Positions 45,765-55,138 of a stretch of 64,000 nucleotides of DNA are shown piece after piece (the first letter of the stretch is position 1; each line of letters starts with the position of its first letter). Position numbers and translations under genes: made by a program. The stretch lies in NCBI GenBank assembly GCA_009773155.1, contig WOVA01000014.1:27434-91433 (forward strand), written 5' to 3'. The notes beneath the pieces are model-generated. The model did not search any database, was not told the origin of the DNA, and saw only the letters and a list, made by a program, of their open reading frames with translations. Source of the DNA: Elusimicrobiota bacterium. GTDB taxonomy: Bacteria > Elusimicrobiota > Elusimicrobia > Elusimicrobiales > UBA9959.

Positions 45765-45780
45765 TTTGACTCCTGTTAAC

Positions 45781-45841
45781 GGGGACGTTGTTTAGTTCTT
45801 TAGTTTTATCCCGCAAAACTAAAGAACTAAACAACGTCCCC
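45781..45841. repeat. perfect 27-bp inverted repeat with 7-nt loop (palindromic element or terminator-like hairpin)
   Basis: GGGGACGTTGTTTAGTTCTTTAGTTTT-ATCCCGC-AAAACTAAAGAACTAAACAACGTCCCC. Confidence 0.95.
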
Positions 45842-45847
45842 CTAAAA

Positions 45848-48324: not shown

Positions 48325-48343
48325 GCGTATATTATATTAATTC

Positions 48344-48423
48344 GGGGACATAATACTTAACTCCCTTGAACCGAATTCCGCGGAACTCCCCCGGAGGAGC
48401 CGGGAATTAAGTATTGTGTCCCC
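48344..48423. repeat. REP-like element with inverted ends GGGGACATAATACTTAACTCCC / GGGAATTAAGTATTGTGTCCCC
   Basis: Arms 20/22 complementary, 80 bp end to end, intergenic. Confidence 0.82.
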
Positions 48424-48436
48424 AAAACTCCCAGAA

Positions 48437-48994
48437 TTACTTGACGGCTATGAAGGCGGGGTAATAGCCCTGGCCCGAAGAGCACCCCTCCAGGGCCTCC
48501 GCGCCGGGCCGGCATTTCAGGAAGCGGGCCCTGAACCCGCGCTTACGCAGAAGGGCCGGGACCTCGCCGGCGGAAAACAAACCGCACCTGAACCGGTCGG
48601 TCTCCACACTGAACCCGCCCTTGCGGCGTATCAGGAAGACGAAGCGGGTCTCATAGTGACTGTCGCTCGGATCGGGGTCGTAGAGATTCTCGATGAAGGC
48701 GATCTTCACGCCCTTCCCCCGCCCGATATAGCCGTCCACGGCGCCCTGCCGGAACTGCGCCCGGTCGGTATCGAGCAGGAAAAAGAAGACCCCGCCTTTT
48801 TCCAGGTGGCGGTAGGCCGTCGCGAACACCTTCTCCAGGTCCGCCGGCCCGGTCATGTGGTTGAGGGAATCCCAGGCCACCACCGCGTCGTAGGTCCGGC
48901 CCAGCCGCAGCGTCCGCATATCCCCGACGGCGTAGGCGACATCCGGGTTTAGCCGGCGCGCCAGCCGCCCGTAGAGTTTCCCAGTCGTCTTCAT
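48437..48994 (-). pseudogene. N-terminally truncated class I SAM methyltransferase
   Basis: Starts immediately before VAYAVGDMRTLRLGRTYDAVVAWDSLNHMTG; SAM motif I (GxGxG) region absent. Confidence 0.68.
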
Positions 48995-49103
48995 AGGCGC
49001 GCCTGGCGGGACGAGGACTGGCGCGCGGCCGGATCGGCCATGTACTTGCGCATGAACGACGCATGCGAAACCGTCCTTTTCATTTCAGCCTCCGCACCTG
49101 CAT
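48991..49103 (-). pseudogene. in-frame collapsed HI1419/HI1420-type TA pair (toxin MQVRRLK*, antitoxin MKRTVSHASFMRKYMADPAARQSSSRQARL*)
   Basis: Termini match the longer copies at 52034-52611 (antitoxin MRRYITHDSYMKECMADPA...RSSSRQAHL*, toxin MQ...YRRLK*), with the same ATGA overlap. Confidence 0.75.
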
Positions 49104-49120
49104 ACGGGTCTCCTTAATAG

Positions 49121-49137
49121 TGTATCCCAAAGATACA
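49121..49137. promoter_or_regulatory. candidate TA operator TGTATC-CCAAA-GATACA
   Basis: Matches the operator-like TGTATCC-CACA-GGATACA at 52628-52645 at the equivalent position. Confidence 0.5.
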
Positions 49138-49296
49138 GACTGTCAACCCCTCCGACGAACCACGTCGTGTCGCGCGTCAAGGGCTAAAGATATAGGATTT
49201 TCAGCGCTGCCGATGCGGGGAGGGCGCGGAGCCGGCCTTTTTTTGTCGTTACGCAGCTCTCCCTGGGGCCAAGCCACGGGAGGTTCGGCCCATTTC

Positions 49297-50100
49297 TTAA
49301 CCGGCTGAATTAATAGCGGCGGTGAGCGTATCTTTGCTGAAAAGCCTCAGCTCGGATTTATTCTCTAAAAATCTTTCGACATCTTTCTTCGCCGCGCCCA
49401 GGTCGATGCGCTCAGCCCTTTCCAGCATGAAGTCCTTAAAGTTCCCGGCGTTCACTCCGGGCGCCGTCCCCTGGCTTTGAGCCACGGCATTGTTGAGCAG
49501 TTCAAAATTCGGCTGCACCTTCCTGGCTAAATACCAGAAGAGATCATAAATATCGCGCCCCTTAGTATAGCGCCTGTAAAAAGAGGCGTGCAGCTTCCCC
49601 GCGAACAGTGACGGCAGGTCATAATGCGCCAGACTGAACAAATAGGTTTTATTAAGCACGGTGGTCTGCATTTTCCACCCGGCCGGCGGATTAGTGTCGA
49701 TCTCAAGTTTGATAGACAACTTTTCCCGTTTATGCCCCGACAAACCCAAAGCGTGCGGCAGTCCCGGGAAAGTCAAAAAAGCGGAATTCACGGTTTTATC
49801 CCTGTCCTTGTCCAGAACAGCGTTAAGACCGTTCAGCCGGAAATTTTTCTCAAGCCCGCCACAGAGCCCGCCGAAGTCATACCCGGCGGCGTTAAAAACA
49901 GAAAAGTCCAGATCCTCCGAAAACCGCCGCAGCCCGAAAACAACGCGCAACGCCGTGCCGCCGATAAAAGCGAGCCGGGAAAACGCGTCCTGGTCTGACA
50001 AAGATTTAAGCGCCAGTATCTGAAGGAACTCCCTGGCCTTATTGAGTTTATCTTCAACTGAGACTCCGCCCGCCAGTTCCTGCTTTAAAGCCTCGATCAT
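49297..50100 (-). CDS. AbiEii-type nucleotidyltransferase toxin
   Basis: LAFIGGTALRVVFGLRRFSEDLDFSVF; LFAGKLHASFYRRYTKGRDIYDLFWYLARKVQPNFELLNNA. Confidence 0.9.
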   Translation of the reverse strand: MIEALKQELAGGVSVEDKLNKAREFLQILALKSLSDQDAFSRLAFIGGTALRVVFGLRRFSEDLDFSVFNAAGYDFGGLCGGLEKNFRLNGLNAVLDKDRDKTVNSAFLTFPGLPHALGLSGHKREKLSIKLEIDTNPPAGWKMQTTVLNKTYLFSLAHYDLPSLFAGKLHASFYRRYTKGRDIYDLFWYLARKVQPNFELLNNAVAQSQGTAPGVNAGNFKDFMLERAERIDLGAAKKDVERFLENKSELRLFSKDTLTAAINSAG

Positions 50101-50726
50101 ACCTTTCCCCCCATGCCCCTCAAAACAGCGCCGATCTCACGCATCTTAGTGTTATTGAACAAGCCGAAATAGGCCGTAACTTTATTTTTATTCAACGAGT
50201 CCAGGTGCTGAAAACGAAACGATTCCAACAGCGTTTTTTCAACCAGGCCCGCGGGGATCTTCCCGAGATTAAGATAGATGAAATCAGCCACGGCTTTCTC
50301 CGGTTCGGCGATAAAATACGGCAGCCCGGCCTCATCTTTGACCGAGATAAACCCCCTGAAGGCGGAAGATTTCACCGTCTGGTAGCTGAACGTACCGAAA
50401 TCATTGGAAAACCTCGCGGTTTTTTTTGTGGAAACCGAGGTCACATCCGCCACCCTCTCCGGAATAAGGCTGTACCGGCTAAGGGCGTATTCCAAACTCA
50501 CATAGGAAGGCTGATAAAGCTGCCCCGCAAGGTAAAGTCTGCTCGGCTCAATTTTCCGGTCATCCTTTCCAAGGATATACAAGCCGCGCCGCAGTTGCAG
50601 CAAAAGCCCCTGTTTACACCAGCGCCCAAGCTGATTAAGGTCCTCCCCGCTGACCTTGCCAAAGACAACCCTAGTAGGCAGCAGAGGCAAATTTCTGAAC
50701 TTAACTTTAAAATCCCCAAATTTCAT
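50097..50726 (-). CDS. AbiEi-type antitoxin (winged helix)
   Basis: LGRWCKQGLLLQLRRGLYIL; YVSLEYALSRYSLIPERV; AEPEKAVADFIYLN; ATGA overlap with AbiEii gene. Confidence 0.85.
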   Translation of the reverse strand: MKFGDFKVKFRNLPLLPTRVVFGKVSGEDLNQLGRWCKQGLLLQLRRGLYILGKDDRKIEPSRLYLAGQLYQPSYVSLEYALSRYSLIPERVADVTSVSTKKTARFSNDFGTFSYQTVKSSAFRGFISVKDEAGLPYFIAEPEKAVADFIYLNLGKIPAGLVEKTLLESFRFQHLDSLNKNKVTAYFGLFNNTKMREIGAVLRGMGGKV

Positions 50727-50914
50727 ATATTTCTATAAGTAACCTTATTTGATTATCTACAGAAACAGTATAACAGGGCGCGCCCCTTCTGTCAAGTAAT
50801 CGACAGCACAGTGTCTACAGCATAGCAGACCAACCTGTGTGGCCTATGGTCCTGCAGCATCAAGCGCTTTGAATCCACGAGATTTCTAGCGCTGCCGATG
50901 CGGGGCCGGACGCA

Positions 50915-51988
50915 TCACGGACGCCTCAAAAACGCCGTGAGCTCCTGCGGCAGCCAGTGCGCGACCGCGCGGAGACGCGCGTTTATCCGGGACCTGGGCT
51001 TAGAGCTTCCTTCATAAAACCACTCCAGCCGGACGCAGTCCCGGACGCCCCACTCCGCGGGAAACGATTGCCAGGCGTAGGAAACATCCTCATCCCGGGG
51101 AATGATCCCCACCCAGTCCTGGTCCAGCAGACGGTCGATATAAGACCTTGCGTCATCGACGATGAACGGCAGGCCGGCCCGCGCCAGCGCCGCCGCGATC
51201 CTGCAGGTCTCGATCATGCGGGTGCTGGAGAGCGCGCGCAGATGGATTTCCCAGCCTCCGGGCCGGATATCGCGGCGCACGACGTACATATCGATGTGGG
51301 TACTGTTGCCGCCGCGGTAGATCTCCCAGGGATGACCGCCGCGGGATCCGCGCTTATACCAGCGCGCGAAGGCTTCGGCCGAACGGGGCGCGATATCCAG
51401 CAGCCCGTCATGGCGGCCGTCGGCGTATCGTTTATAGTATTCCCGCCCTGAAAGGCCCGGACGGAAGCCCGTCCGCTTGAAAGTGGAGGGATTGGCCTGG
51501 TAGGCGACCCTGCAGTATTCGAGAAACCTGTCCAGCGTCATCGCGCGGCCGGACTCCGGGGCGGGCTTGCGCAAAATTTCCAGGATATCCTTCAACTCTT
51601 TTTTGGACAATTCCGACGCTATCGGCATCCACCCGGGCAGCAAAAGCCGGACATTTTTCCGCGCGATAACGCCTTCACGGAGCCCGAGCGGCAGGGCCCT
51701 GAAAAGCCGCGCCTGTGCTTCGACCGGATCACCGGCCACGGCCCGCCGCCAGCGCGAGATTTCTCCGGCCCAGGCCGGAAAACGGTCCACGGGTCCGGTG
51801 TCGCCGGCCGTCCGGCCCGGGCAGCTGAAAGCGTCGAAGCCTGAGCCCGAAAAATAATAGACGCCGTCGTACCGGGTAACGCTGAGCCTGAGCCAGCGGC
51901 GTTTTTCTTTGAGGAAAAAAGTCCATCGCTCGTCCCGGCCGTCCCGGAACGGCTCGAATTCCTCAATGAGCCCGATCAGTTTTTTCAT
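50915..51988 (-). CDS. hypothetical protein (357 aa), no family recognised
   Basis: Long ORF with normal-looking protein composition; no motif I recognise. Confidence 0.6.
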   Translation of the reverse strand: MKKLIGLIEEFEPFRDGRDERWTFFLKEKRRWLRLSVTRYDGVYYFSGSGFDAFSCPGRTAGDTGPVDRFPAWAGEISRWRRAVAGDPVEAQARLFRALPLGLREGVIARKNVRLLLPGWMPIASELSKKELKDILEILRKPAPESGRAMTLDRFLEYCRVAYQANPSTFKRTGFRPGLSGREYYKRYADGRHDGLLDIAPRSAEAFARWYKRGSRGGHPWEIYRGGNSTHIDMYVVRRDIRPGGWEIHLRALSSTRMIETCRIAAALARAGLPFIVDDARSYIDRLLDQDWVGIIPRDEDVSYAWQSFPAEWGVRDCVRLEWFYEGSSKPRSRINARLRAVAHWLPQELTAFLRRP

Positions 51989-52033
51989 AGCCGTTTCCCC
52001 TACCTGTGTGCATTATCCCCAGAACTCCGGGCC

Positions 52034-52378
52034 TCACAAATGCGCCTGGCGGGAGGAAGAACGATGCGCGGACGGCCGCGGACCCTTAGCTATAGGGAAG
52101 AACCCCAGCCTCACGCCGTAAACGGCAAGGATGGCCTCCAGCGTGTGTATGCCCGGATTACCGGTGGGCGAAAGCGCCTTGTAGAGACTGGTACGGCTCA
52201 TCCCCACCGCCTTGGCGAGCTTCCCCATCCCCCCCTGCGCGCCGGCCACCGTGCGTATGGCCTTGAGCAGGAAAGGGATATCCCCGTCCTCCAGAACGAC
52301 ATTGAGATAGGTCGCGGCCTCAGCCGGGTCGGCCATGCATTCTTTCATGTACGAATCATGCGTTATATAGCGTCTCAT
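52034..52378 (-). CDS. HI1420-family addiction-module antidote (HTH)
   Basis: DPAEAATYLNVVLEDGDIPFLLKAIRTVAGAQGGMGKLAKAVGMSRTSLYKALSPTGNPGIHTLEAIL. Confidence 0.9.
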   Translation of the reverse strand: MRRYITHDSYMKECMADPAEAATYLNVVLEDGDIPFLLKAIRTVAGAQGGMGKLAKAVGMSRTSLYKALSPTGNPGIHTLEAILAVYGVRLGFFPIAKGPRPSAHRSSSRQAHL

Positions 52379-52611
52379 TTCAGCCTCCGATAACTTTCCC
52401 AAAAAACATGCGCTTTGGCATAGTGAACACGCAACTCCCAAAGGCCAGCCCCAAGACTATGGTGATCACCGAGGTTCCCCTCCTTAAGCCGGGAGATCCG
52501 CTTCCGCAGCACAGCACGCCCGACCGGATCTTGAAGCGACTTAACCCAATCCCCGAAAATATCCTTTCCACCCACGACATAATGCAGCACCGTACGCTTT
52601 TGTGACTGCAT
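52375..52611 (-). CDS. HI1419/RelE-ParE-type toxin, apparently internally deleted (78 aa)
   Basis: DIFGDWVKSLQDPVGRAVLRKRISRLKEGNLGDHHSLGAGLWELRVHY then directly AKAHVFWESYRRLK. Confidence 0.72.
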   Translation of the reverse strand: MQSQKRTVLHYVVGGKDIFGDWVKSLQDPVGRAVLRKRISRLKEGNLGDHHSLGAGLWELRVHYAKAHVFWESYRRLK

Positions 52612-52627
52612 ACAGGTCTCCTTAGAG

Positions 52628-52645
52628 TGTATCCCACAGGATACA
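52628..52645. promoter_or_regulatory. candidate TA operator TGTATCC-CACA-GGATACA
   Basis: Perfect 7-bp inverted repeat just upstream of the toxin ORF. Confidence 0.6.
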
Positions 52646-52737
52646 GATTGTCAACCCCTCGCAAGCACCTTTAATAGCGTAAACTACCGGTGCGACAACG
52701 TCGTGTCGCACGTCAAGGGATGTATTGTGTCCCCGAA

Positions 52738-54666
52738 TTAAACGGGATCGTCGCTGGAGGGAAGCCGGGGCGGGACGCCCCGGGAAATAGGTATTGTGTC
52801 CCCGGATTTGGGCCCGGAGGACCGCGGCCAGCCGGTATAAGCCGGCACCAGCCGCTTTATCAGGTCCATGACGGGGCCGTGGCCGGCGGAAGCGGCGGCG
52901 GACTTAAGCTCCAGCACATGCGCCTCGGTCAGCGCGGCGCCGGCCTCGCCGGGCACCGCCGCGAAAATATCGGAGTGGCCGGTATCGCGGCGCACGTCCT
53001 CGGCGCGGAACATCTCCTCGTACATCTTCTCGCCGGCCTTGAGCCCGGTATACGAGATCTCGATATCCCTGCCCGGCTCCAGGCCGTTCATCACTATCAT
53101 GTTGCGCGCCAGGTCGGCTATCCTGACCGGCTCGCCCATGTTCAGGACGAAGATCTCCCCCCCGTCGCCCATCGAGCAGGCTTTCAGCACCAGCGTGACG
53201 GCCTCTTCGGTGGTCATGAAGTAGCGGATGACGTCCGGATGGGTCACGGTGACGGGCCCGCCGGCGGCTATCTGCTCCTGGAAGATCTTTACCACGCTGC
53301 CGGAACTCCCCAGCACATTGCCGAAGCGCACCGACATGAAGCGCGTCGTCCCGCCGGCGAAGGCGCGCGCGGCCATCTCGGCCAGGCGCTTGGTGGCGCC
53401 CATCACGCTCGACGGCCGCACCGCCTTGTCCGTGGAGATCAATAAGAACCGCTCCGCGTTATAAGCCGCGGCCGCGCGCGCCAGCATATAGGTCCCCAGC
53501 GTATTGTTCTTGACCGCCTCCTGCGGGTTGCCCTCCATCAGCGCCACGTGCTTATGCGCCGCCGCGTGCAGCACCCAGGCCGGCTTATAGGCCTCGAAAA
53601 CGTTCTTGAGCAGGCTCTCGTCGCGTATATCGCCCGCGACGGGGACCACCACGCCGCCGTAGCCGGCCGCGCGCAGCTCCTTGTCGATATAGAACAGCGC
53701 CGTATTGTGGGTCTCCAGCAGCGCCAGGCGCGACGGGCCGAAGGCCGCTATCTGCCGGGCCAGCTCGGCGCCGATGGTGCCGCCAGCGCCGGTGACCAGC
53801 ATCGACCTGCCCGCCACGGCGCGCTTCACCGGGCTCATGTCTATGTCCACCACGCGGCGGTGCATCAGGTCGGAGACGTCTATGCGGCGGATATCGGTCG
53901 CCAGGCGGCGCTTGTTTATCAGCTCGTCCATGCCGGGCACGGTCTTGAATTCCACCTTGCGCCCGCAGCCCGAGGCGGCGTAGAGAGTCATCAGGTCCAG
54001 TATCAGCTTGCCGCGCGCGTGGGCCACGGCCACCACCACCTCGTCGACATTTTTGCGGGCGATGATCCCGCCGATCATCCCGCGACCGCCCAGCACCGGC
54101 ACGCCGTGGATGCTGCGGCCGTGCTTAAGGGCGTTGTCGTCGAGGAAAGCCACCACCTTGCGGCCGGTGTCGTGGCTGCGCTGCAGGTCGCGCACGATGG
54201 TCTCGCCCAGGTCGCCCGCGCCGAATATAAGAACCCTGGAGACCGGACCTTTCCCGACGCCGTAGCGCCGGTTGCGCGTAAGCCGGATGGCGAAGCGTAT
54301 GCCGCCGACGAAGAACAGCGTCAGCACCGGCCCGATGACCAGCACCGACCGCGGGAAGCCGCCGCGCCAGAAGAAAAGCATCACCGCCATCAGCAGCATC
54401 TGGCTGACGACGACGGCCTTGAAGACGGAAAGAAGGTCGTGTATGCTGGCGTAGCGCCAGAGCCCGCGGTAGAGGCCGAAGAAGTAGAAAGCCGCCAGCA
54501 GCAGGGCCAGCACCAGCGGCAGCGTGCGGGTAAAGTTGTACCACTCATTGCCCGGCCACTGGAAATCGAAGCGCAGCATGAAGGCCAGCCAATAAGCCAG
54601 CGCCACCGCCGCGGCGTCTGCCAGGGCGACGAACCATCTGGAATGCTTTTTAATGATAGTCCCCAC
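52738..54666 (-). CDS. CapD/FlaA-like nucleoside-diphosphate-sugar epimerase/dehydratase (membrane-anchored)
   Basis: N-terminal TM region; RVLIFGAGDLGETIVRDLQRS; RSMLVTGAGGTIGAELARQIAAFGPSRLALLETHNTALFYIDKEL; probable GTG start. Confidence 0.92.
   Translation of the reverse strand: MGTIIKKHSRWFVALADAAAVALAYWLAFMLRFDFQWPGNEWYNFTRTLPLVLALLLAAFYFFGLYRGLWRYASIHDLLSVFKAVVVSQMLLMAVMLFFWRGGFPRSVLVIGPVLTLFFVGGIRFAIRLTRNRRYGVGKGPVSRVLIFGAGDLGETIVRDLQRSHDTGRKVVAFLDDNALKHGRSIHGVPVLGGRGMIGGIIARKNVDEVVVAVAHARGKLILDLMTLYAASGCGRKVEFKTVPGMDELINKRRLATDIRRIDVSDLMHRRVVDIDMSPVKRAVAGRSMLVTGAGGTIGAELARQIAAFGPSRLALLETHNTALFYIDKELRAAGYGGVVVPVAGDIRDESLLKNVFEAYKPAWVLHAAAHKHVALMEGNPQEAVKNNTLGTYMLARAAAAYNAERFLLISTDKAVRPSSVMGATKRLAEMAARAFAGGTTRFMSVRFGNVLGSSGSVVKIFQEQIAAGGPVTVTHPDVIRYFMTTEEAVTLVLKACSMGDGGEIFVLNMGEPVRIADLARNMIVMNGLEPGRDIEISYTGLKAGEKMYEEMFRAEDVRRDTGHSDIFAAVPGEAGAALTEAHVLELKSAAASAGHGPVMDLIKRLVPAYTGWPRSSGPKSGDTIPISRGVPPRLPSSDDPV
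52782..52803. repeat. REP-like end GGGAAATAGGTATTGTGTCCCC overlapping 3' end of the CapD gene
   Basis: 20/22 identical to 48402-48423; second TATTGTGTCCCC at 52723-52734. Confidence 0.75.
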
Positions 54667-54712: not shown

Positions 54713-55138
54713 TTACACGGCCGCCAGCCGGCGGCAGGCCTCGTCGATGGCCGCGTCCCGCTTGGCGTAGCAGAAGCGCAGGAGATTGTCGGCCTCGGGC
54801 GCGCCGTCACGGTAGAACGACTCGCCCGGCACGGCGCCCACGCCGCAGCGGGACAGCAGCCCCATGGCCTTATCCTTGCCGGTGCGGCCCAGCAGGCCCG
54901 AAGCGTCGGCCAGCACATAATAGGCACCGGCGGGCACCCACGGCTTCATCCCCGCCTTGGACAAAGCCGCGCAGAACTTGTCGCGCTTGGCCTTATAGGC
55001 CGCGGCCACCACTTCCGGGATATCGGTATCGCAGACCCCCTGGGCCAGGTTTATCCCGCCCACCCGGTCGCATTCCACCGACATATTGCGTATCTCGGCC
55101 TTCTCTATGAAAGCCGAACGCGGACTTAATTTTGTCAT
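54713..55138 (-). pseudogene. internally deleted class I/II aminotransferase (141 aa)
   Basis: N-terminal SPRSAFIEKAEIRNMSVECDRVGGINLAQGVCDTDIPEVV joined in frame to C-terminal YKAKRDKFCAALSKAGMKPWVPAGAYYVLADASG...; PLP-Lys region missing. Confidence 0.78.

Follow-up and report, generated by a model that had tools for sequence, protein, structure and literature searches.

In-frame decay of a toxin-antitoxin operon in an Elusimicrobiales genome

In a 64,000-nucleotide stretch of an Elusimicrobiales genome (hereafter, the window), two overlapping minus-strand ORFs of 7 and 30 codons are the remains of a toxin gene and an antitoxin gene. The locus is very probably a decayed orthologue of an HI1419/HI1420-type toxin-antitoxin operon, produced by deletions at short repeats together with weak selection for nonpolar scars that preserve translational coupling. 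This is ordinary gene decay at the locus, set within a genome that has an unusual habit of keeping the reading frame. An initial annotation, made from the sequence alone, had proposed that the pair collapsed in frame to these micro-ORFs and that they keep the start and stop ends of both genes. Intact orthologues at the same site in a genome of the same genus (G001) confirm the collapse, and the retention of the gene ends is borne out both by G001 and by similarity to a second module in the window (52034 to 52611).

The remnant operon and its intact orthologues

The toxin remnant (49080 to 49103, minus strand) reads MQVRRLK followed by a stop codon and lacks 306 bp relative to G001, while the antitoxin remnant (48991 to 49083, minus strand) reads MKRTVSHASFMRKYMADPAARQSSSRQARL followed by a stop codon and lacks 252 bp. 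The initial annotation was right that ATGA coupling is retained: the two remnants overlap by ATGA, and the antitoxin remnant overlaps the start of the next gene (48994) in the same way. That next gene is a third gutted member of the series, which the annotation had missed. It is a SAM methyltransferase remnant (48437 to 48994, minus strand) of 185 aa, compared to 252 aa in G001, with a 201-bp in-frame loss between 10-bp repeats (GCGGCTGGCC) that removed motif I (LHLGCGGG) and shrank its Pfam match from profile positions 2 to 97 in G001 to positions 41 to 97. Each of the three net losses in the alignment is a multiple of three. What the window keeps is the promoter, the ATGA overlaps, and the gene ends; what it has lost is the interiors of three genes in series.

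At the same site, G001 (JAVHLJ010000028.1; L011, G001:C20) carries an intact toxin of 109 aa that matches TIGR02683 at 113 bits (cut-off 62.85), an intact antitoxin of 114 aa that matches TIGR02684 and PF21716, and the full-length methyltransferase. The two genomes share the gene order of toxin, antitoxin, and methyltransferase, then carbamoyltransferase and glycosyltransferase. In a further relative (G002), an intact toxin-antitoxin pair lies directly before the same carbamoyltransferase gene, adding to the support from close relatives, and of 34 other toxin matches in the searched relatives, almost every one is approximately full length, this genome excepted. The alignment of the remnant with 52030 to 52720 that the annotation had proposed as a check gave matches of 67 bp at 72%, 34 bp at 79%, and 55 bp at 89% identity (E 2e-12), far beyond chance. 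Neither the intact toxin nor the intact antitoxin found a match among solved structures.

Because the toxin, the DNA-binding domain of the antitoxin, and the SAM-binding motif of the methyltransferase are gone, we infer from sequence that all three remnant products are inactive. The 30-residue antitoxin remnant matches no Pfam family, its helix-turn-helix (HTH) and nearly all of its PF21716 domain having been removed. The methyltransferase remnant has a dN/dS of 0.18, close to the 0.15 to 0.16 of its intact neighbours, which marks its loss as recent.

The interval from the CapD-like gene to the carbamoyltransferase gene serves as a slot for modules of the toxin-antitoxin kind. It holds differing type IV pairs, namely AbiEi/AbiEii in the window (49297 to 50726) and AbiEi_2 with an NTP_transf_8 nucleotidyltransferase in G001 (L013:7219-8692). 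The AbiE pair is flanked by 25-bp direct repeats (92% identity; 49196 to 49220 and 50881 to 50905, 1685 bp apart), which may be cassette ends. The slot also contains a 357-aa protein (50915 to 51988) with no Pfam, NCBIfam, or PADLOC match. Repeated inverted elements occupy intergenic positions 48337 to 48426, 52722 to 52803, and 45776 to 45846, and the first two share a REP-like motif resembling GTATTGTGTCCCCGAATTA. In another genome, a related toxin-antitoxin module is tandemly duplicated, with 1111 bp between the copies (G011:C15 99411-101114).

Deletion junctions and the reading frame

Three independent deletions, visible in the alignment, emptied the toxin, antitoxin, and methyltransferase genes, probably by slippage or annealing at short repeats ranging from 10 bp to almost none. 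Their junctions lie near 48968, 49028, and 49094. With G001 standing in for the ancestor, the methyltransferase junction has a repeat of 10 bp, and the toxin and antitoxin junctions have exact repeats of 0 to 2 bp, short or imperfect. Since the junctions of the antitoxin, the toxin, and OtsA (described below) are almost without exact repeat, the repeat mechanism is a proposal for these three. Loss of repair as a cause of the deletions was considered and rejected: MutS is present, and RecJ (TIGR00644) was undetected in this genome and its family mates alike (G000 to G008), so RecJ does not explain the deletions here.

The source is a fragmented MAG (2.76 Mb in 93 contigs, with the window on contig C28), which raises the prospect that the contig simply skips the interiors of full-length genes. 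We consider such an assembly artefact very unlikely. Assemblers normally use k-mers longer than the junction repeats of 0 to 14 bp and are blind to reading frames, and the genome contains no second full copy of the antitoxin, toxin, or OtsA gene.

The initial annotation had judged the retention of both frames unlikely for random decay. We evaluated this with a null in which breakpoints are drawn from equally good repeat pairs within each gene. The in-frame fraction under this null is 0.34 for the toxin, 0.37 for the antitoxin, and 0.86 for the methyltransferase, giving a joint chance of approximately 1 in 8 for the toxin and antitoxin and approximately 0.11 for all three genes. At the locus, therefore, the judgement is not supported (joint chance approximately 0.11 to 0.13), and taken by itself this site makes no strong case for selection; the judgement finds support only in the wider genome. 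In-frame deletion is common because codon usage phases repeats: among direct repeats located 60 to 400 bp apart inside ORFs of these genomes, the in-frame fraction is 48% for repeats of at least 4 bp, 58% for at least 6 bp, 74% for at least 9 bp, and 82% for at least 10 bp.

Across 264 kb of this genome aligned with G001 at the DNA level, with each deletion annotated, all 10 of the gene-gutting deletions are in frame, toxin-antitoxin cases included. Inside the window, an aminotransferase gene (54713 to 55138, minus strand) has lost 732 bp and now encodes 141 aa (387 aa in G001). At the trehalose locus (L097:13001-14700, G000:C16), three in-frame junctions have collapsed OtsA and OtsB to one open frame of 272 codons, with losses of 930 bp in OtsA, approximately 1638 bp at the OtsA-OtsB fusion, and approximately 330 bp in OtsB; OtsA is full length in three of three genus mates. 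Beside this locus, an antiporter gene has lost 1164 bp in frame, leaving a 16-codon remnant (MSAQARLKRIISGDFQ) that overlaps the start of the next gene by ATGA. An MFS transporter gene has lost 594 bp in frame, with 14-bp repeats at the junction (L134:16177-16193, G000:C16 36177-36193). The reverse direction yielded one comparable case: a cysteine-synthase-like gene (named by sequence alone; 306 aa in this genome) is reduced in G001 to a 16-codon ORF (MRPAPSWIPRAGEPRS; L192:10249-10299, G001:C17 30249-30299) that keeps its ATGA overlap with the next gene. Frame breaks do occur, with two frameshifted genes among 175 orthologues of this genome. A protein-level scan for two-piece genes, which is less sensitive than the DNA-level scan, recovered only two cases.

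Treating cases as independent and G001 as the ancestor, we obtained rough composition-aware chances of full frame retention of 0.006 for the eight measured deletions and approximately 0.001 with two more; the cases outside the toxin-antitoxin locus alone give approximately 0.025 (product of entries, with 0.45 assumed for the fusion). Purely neutral short-repeat decay, with frame retention as a by-product of codon-phased repeats, is in our estimation an evenly balanced proposition. It is favoured by the 48 to 82% of repeat pairs that lie in frame, by the locus-level chance, and by the long repeats at two of the junctions (MFS and methyltransferase), but the ten-of-ten record has a chance of approximately 0.001 to 0.006 even under this null. 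Neutral decay alone is thus strained genome-wide, yet less so at the locus or among the outside cases. In the explanation that we prefer, frame retention would have two causes, the codon-phased repeats demonstrated above and a lower cost of frame-keeping scars suggested by the genome-wide excess. In packed operons, scars that keep the frame with start, stop, and ATGA would be less harmful because ribosomes would still reach the next gene, and weak selection would favour those that leave translation of the operon uninterrupted.

Control region, second module, and possible roles for the micro-ORFs

A sigma-70-like promoter match (TTGACA-16-TACACT; 49119 to 49146, minus strand), inherited from the toxin-antitoxin operon, still precedes the micro-ORFs; its spacer is 17 in intact copies. 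Within it lies an operator-like palindrome, TGTATC-N5-GATACA (49121 to 49137, unstranded). The initial annotation was correct that such a palindrome is retained, but here its half-sites are separated by 5 bp rather than the 6 bp found in three intact copies (G001, G002, and the second module, where by sequence comparison TGTATC-N6-GATACA lies at 52628 to 52645, unstranded), so that it measures 17 bp instead of 18 bp. In addition, half of an upstream palindrome (GTGCGACA...TGTCGCAC) is absent from the window. To judge from these motifs, the remnant still displays a trait of the toxin-antitoxin family: overlapping genes in a shared operon with an operator-like palindrome in the promoter.

One use for this arrangement would be translational: the string of tiny coupled ORFs would be retained because it relays ribosomes to downstream genes or serves them as an anti-polarity leader, in effect a natural nonpolar deletion. 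The retained promoter, the ATGA overlaps at both junctions, the similar overlaps of the antiporter remnant and the G001 ORF, and the uniformly in-frame deletions are what such a relay would leave. However, the directly coupled methyltransferase has no SAM-binding motif and is itself presumably dead, a gap of 112 bp lies between it and the next gene, and a TATAAT just before the carbamoyltransferase gene suggests that this gene may have its own promoter. A leader or attenuator was also considered and rejected, as the RNA folds no better than shuffles (z +1.2) and has no terminator or Rfam match; this too counts against a relay. We regard selection for a relay as possible but doubtful. Doubtful to a somewhat greater degree is the broader idea that this lineage channels gene loss in tightly coupled operons into frame-keeping scars, with selection against polarity leaving chains of micro-ORFs that pass ribosomes along, together with its corollary that many micro-ORFs, whether annotated or not, are natural nonpolar deletion scars. 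Under the preferred explanation of decay with weak selection, the micro-ORFs would be at most ribosome relays rather than working peptides, and a micro-peptide function is unlikely.

The second module bears on one such function. Its antitoxin (52034 to 52378, minus strand) is full length at 114 aa, is constrained (dN/dS approximately 0.14), and matches PF21716/TIGR02684 at 59.7 bits, above the cut-off of 53.7. Its toxin (52375 to 52611, minus strand), which the initial annotation took as full length, is only 78 aa. Approximately 31 core codons (GPGYR...SQSRDI) are missing in frame relative to intact relatives, and the score against TIGR02683 is 45.4 bits, below the cut-off of 62.85. No further toxin of the family was found in the genome beyond this truncated gene and the gutted micro-ORF, so both toxins are probably dead, while the second antitoxin is intact and constrained.

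These observations make it extremely improbable that the micro-ORFs are themselves selected, with the 30-codon micro-antitoxin still binding toxin or operator and acting on the second module as an anti-addiction factor or regulator. The frame, starts, stops, promoter, and Shine-Dalgarno sequence are retained, and the first 14 residues are identical to those of the G001 antitoxin. On the other hand, the micro-antitoxin has lost its HTH and almost the whole PF21716 domain, the second toxin lacks its core and so offers no intact toxin to act on, the operator-like spacing is altered, and the dN/dS of the remnant relative to G001 is 0.33, based on few sites. The micro-ORFs, which the annotation had suggested seeking in relatives, were absent from all 100 relatives searched; the junction motif was absent from viral contigs, and there was no plasmid match.

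Comparison with known systems

Decay can produce coupled micro-ORFs that are not genes for small proteins, which is a caution for small-ORF surveys. If genome-wide frame retention holds, the genome would offer a natural test of the degree to which gene loss in operons is shaped by translational polarity. Searches of openly licensed texts turned up no paper describing toxin-antitoxin modules that decay in frame, although this is not proof of novelty.

The closest known systems are type II modules of the HI1419/HI1420 type (TIGR02683 toxin, Gp49/RelE-ParE-like; TIGR02684/PF21716 antitoxin), intact orthologues of which are present in G001 and G002. The G001 proteins match the family models, and the layout has the toxin first, an ATGA overlap, and an operator placed between the -35 and -10 elements. 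The window retains only the ends and control region of the two gutted genes. Pseudogenes formed by short-repeat deletion resemble the window locus in the repeats of up to 10 to 14 bp at some of the junctions, the recent loss, and the single copy, but here all ten gutting deletions are in frame, beyond the expectation from composition. In engineered nonpolar in-frame deletions, the start, stop, and coupling are kept and the interior is removed so that downstream translation is spared. The window scar keeps the same start, stop, and coupling, whereas its origin is natural and its benefit to downstream genes is putative.
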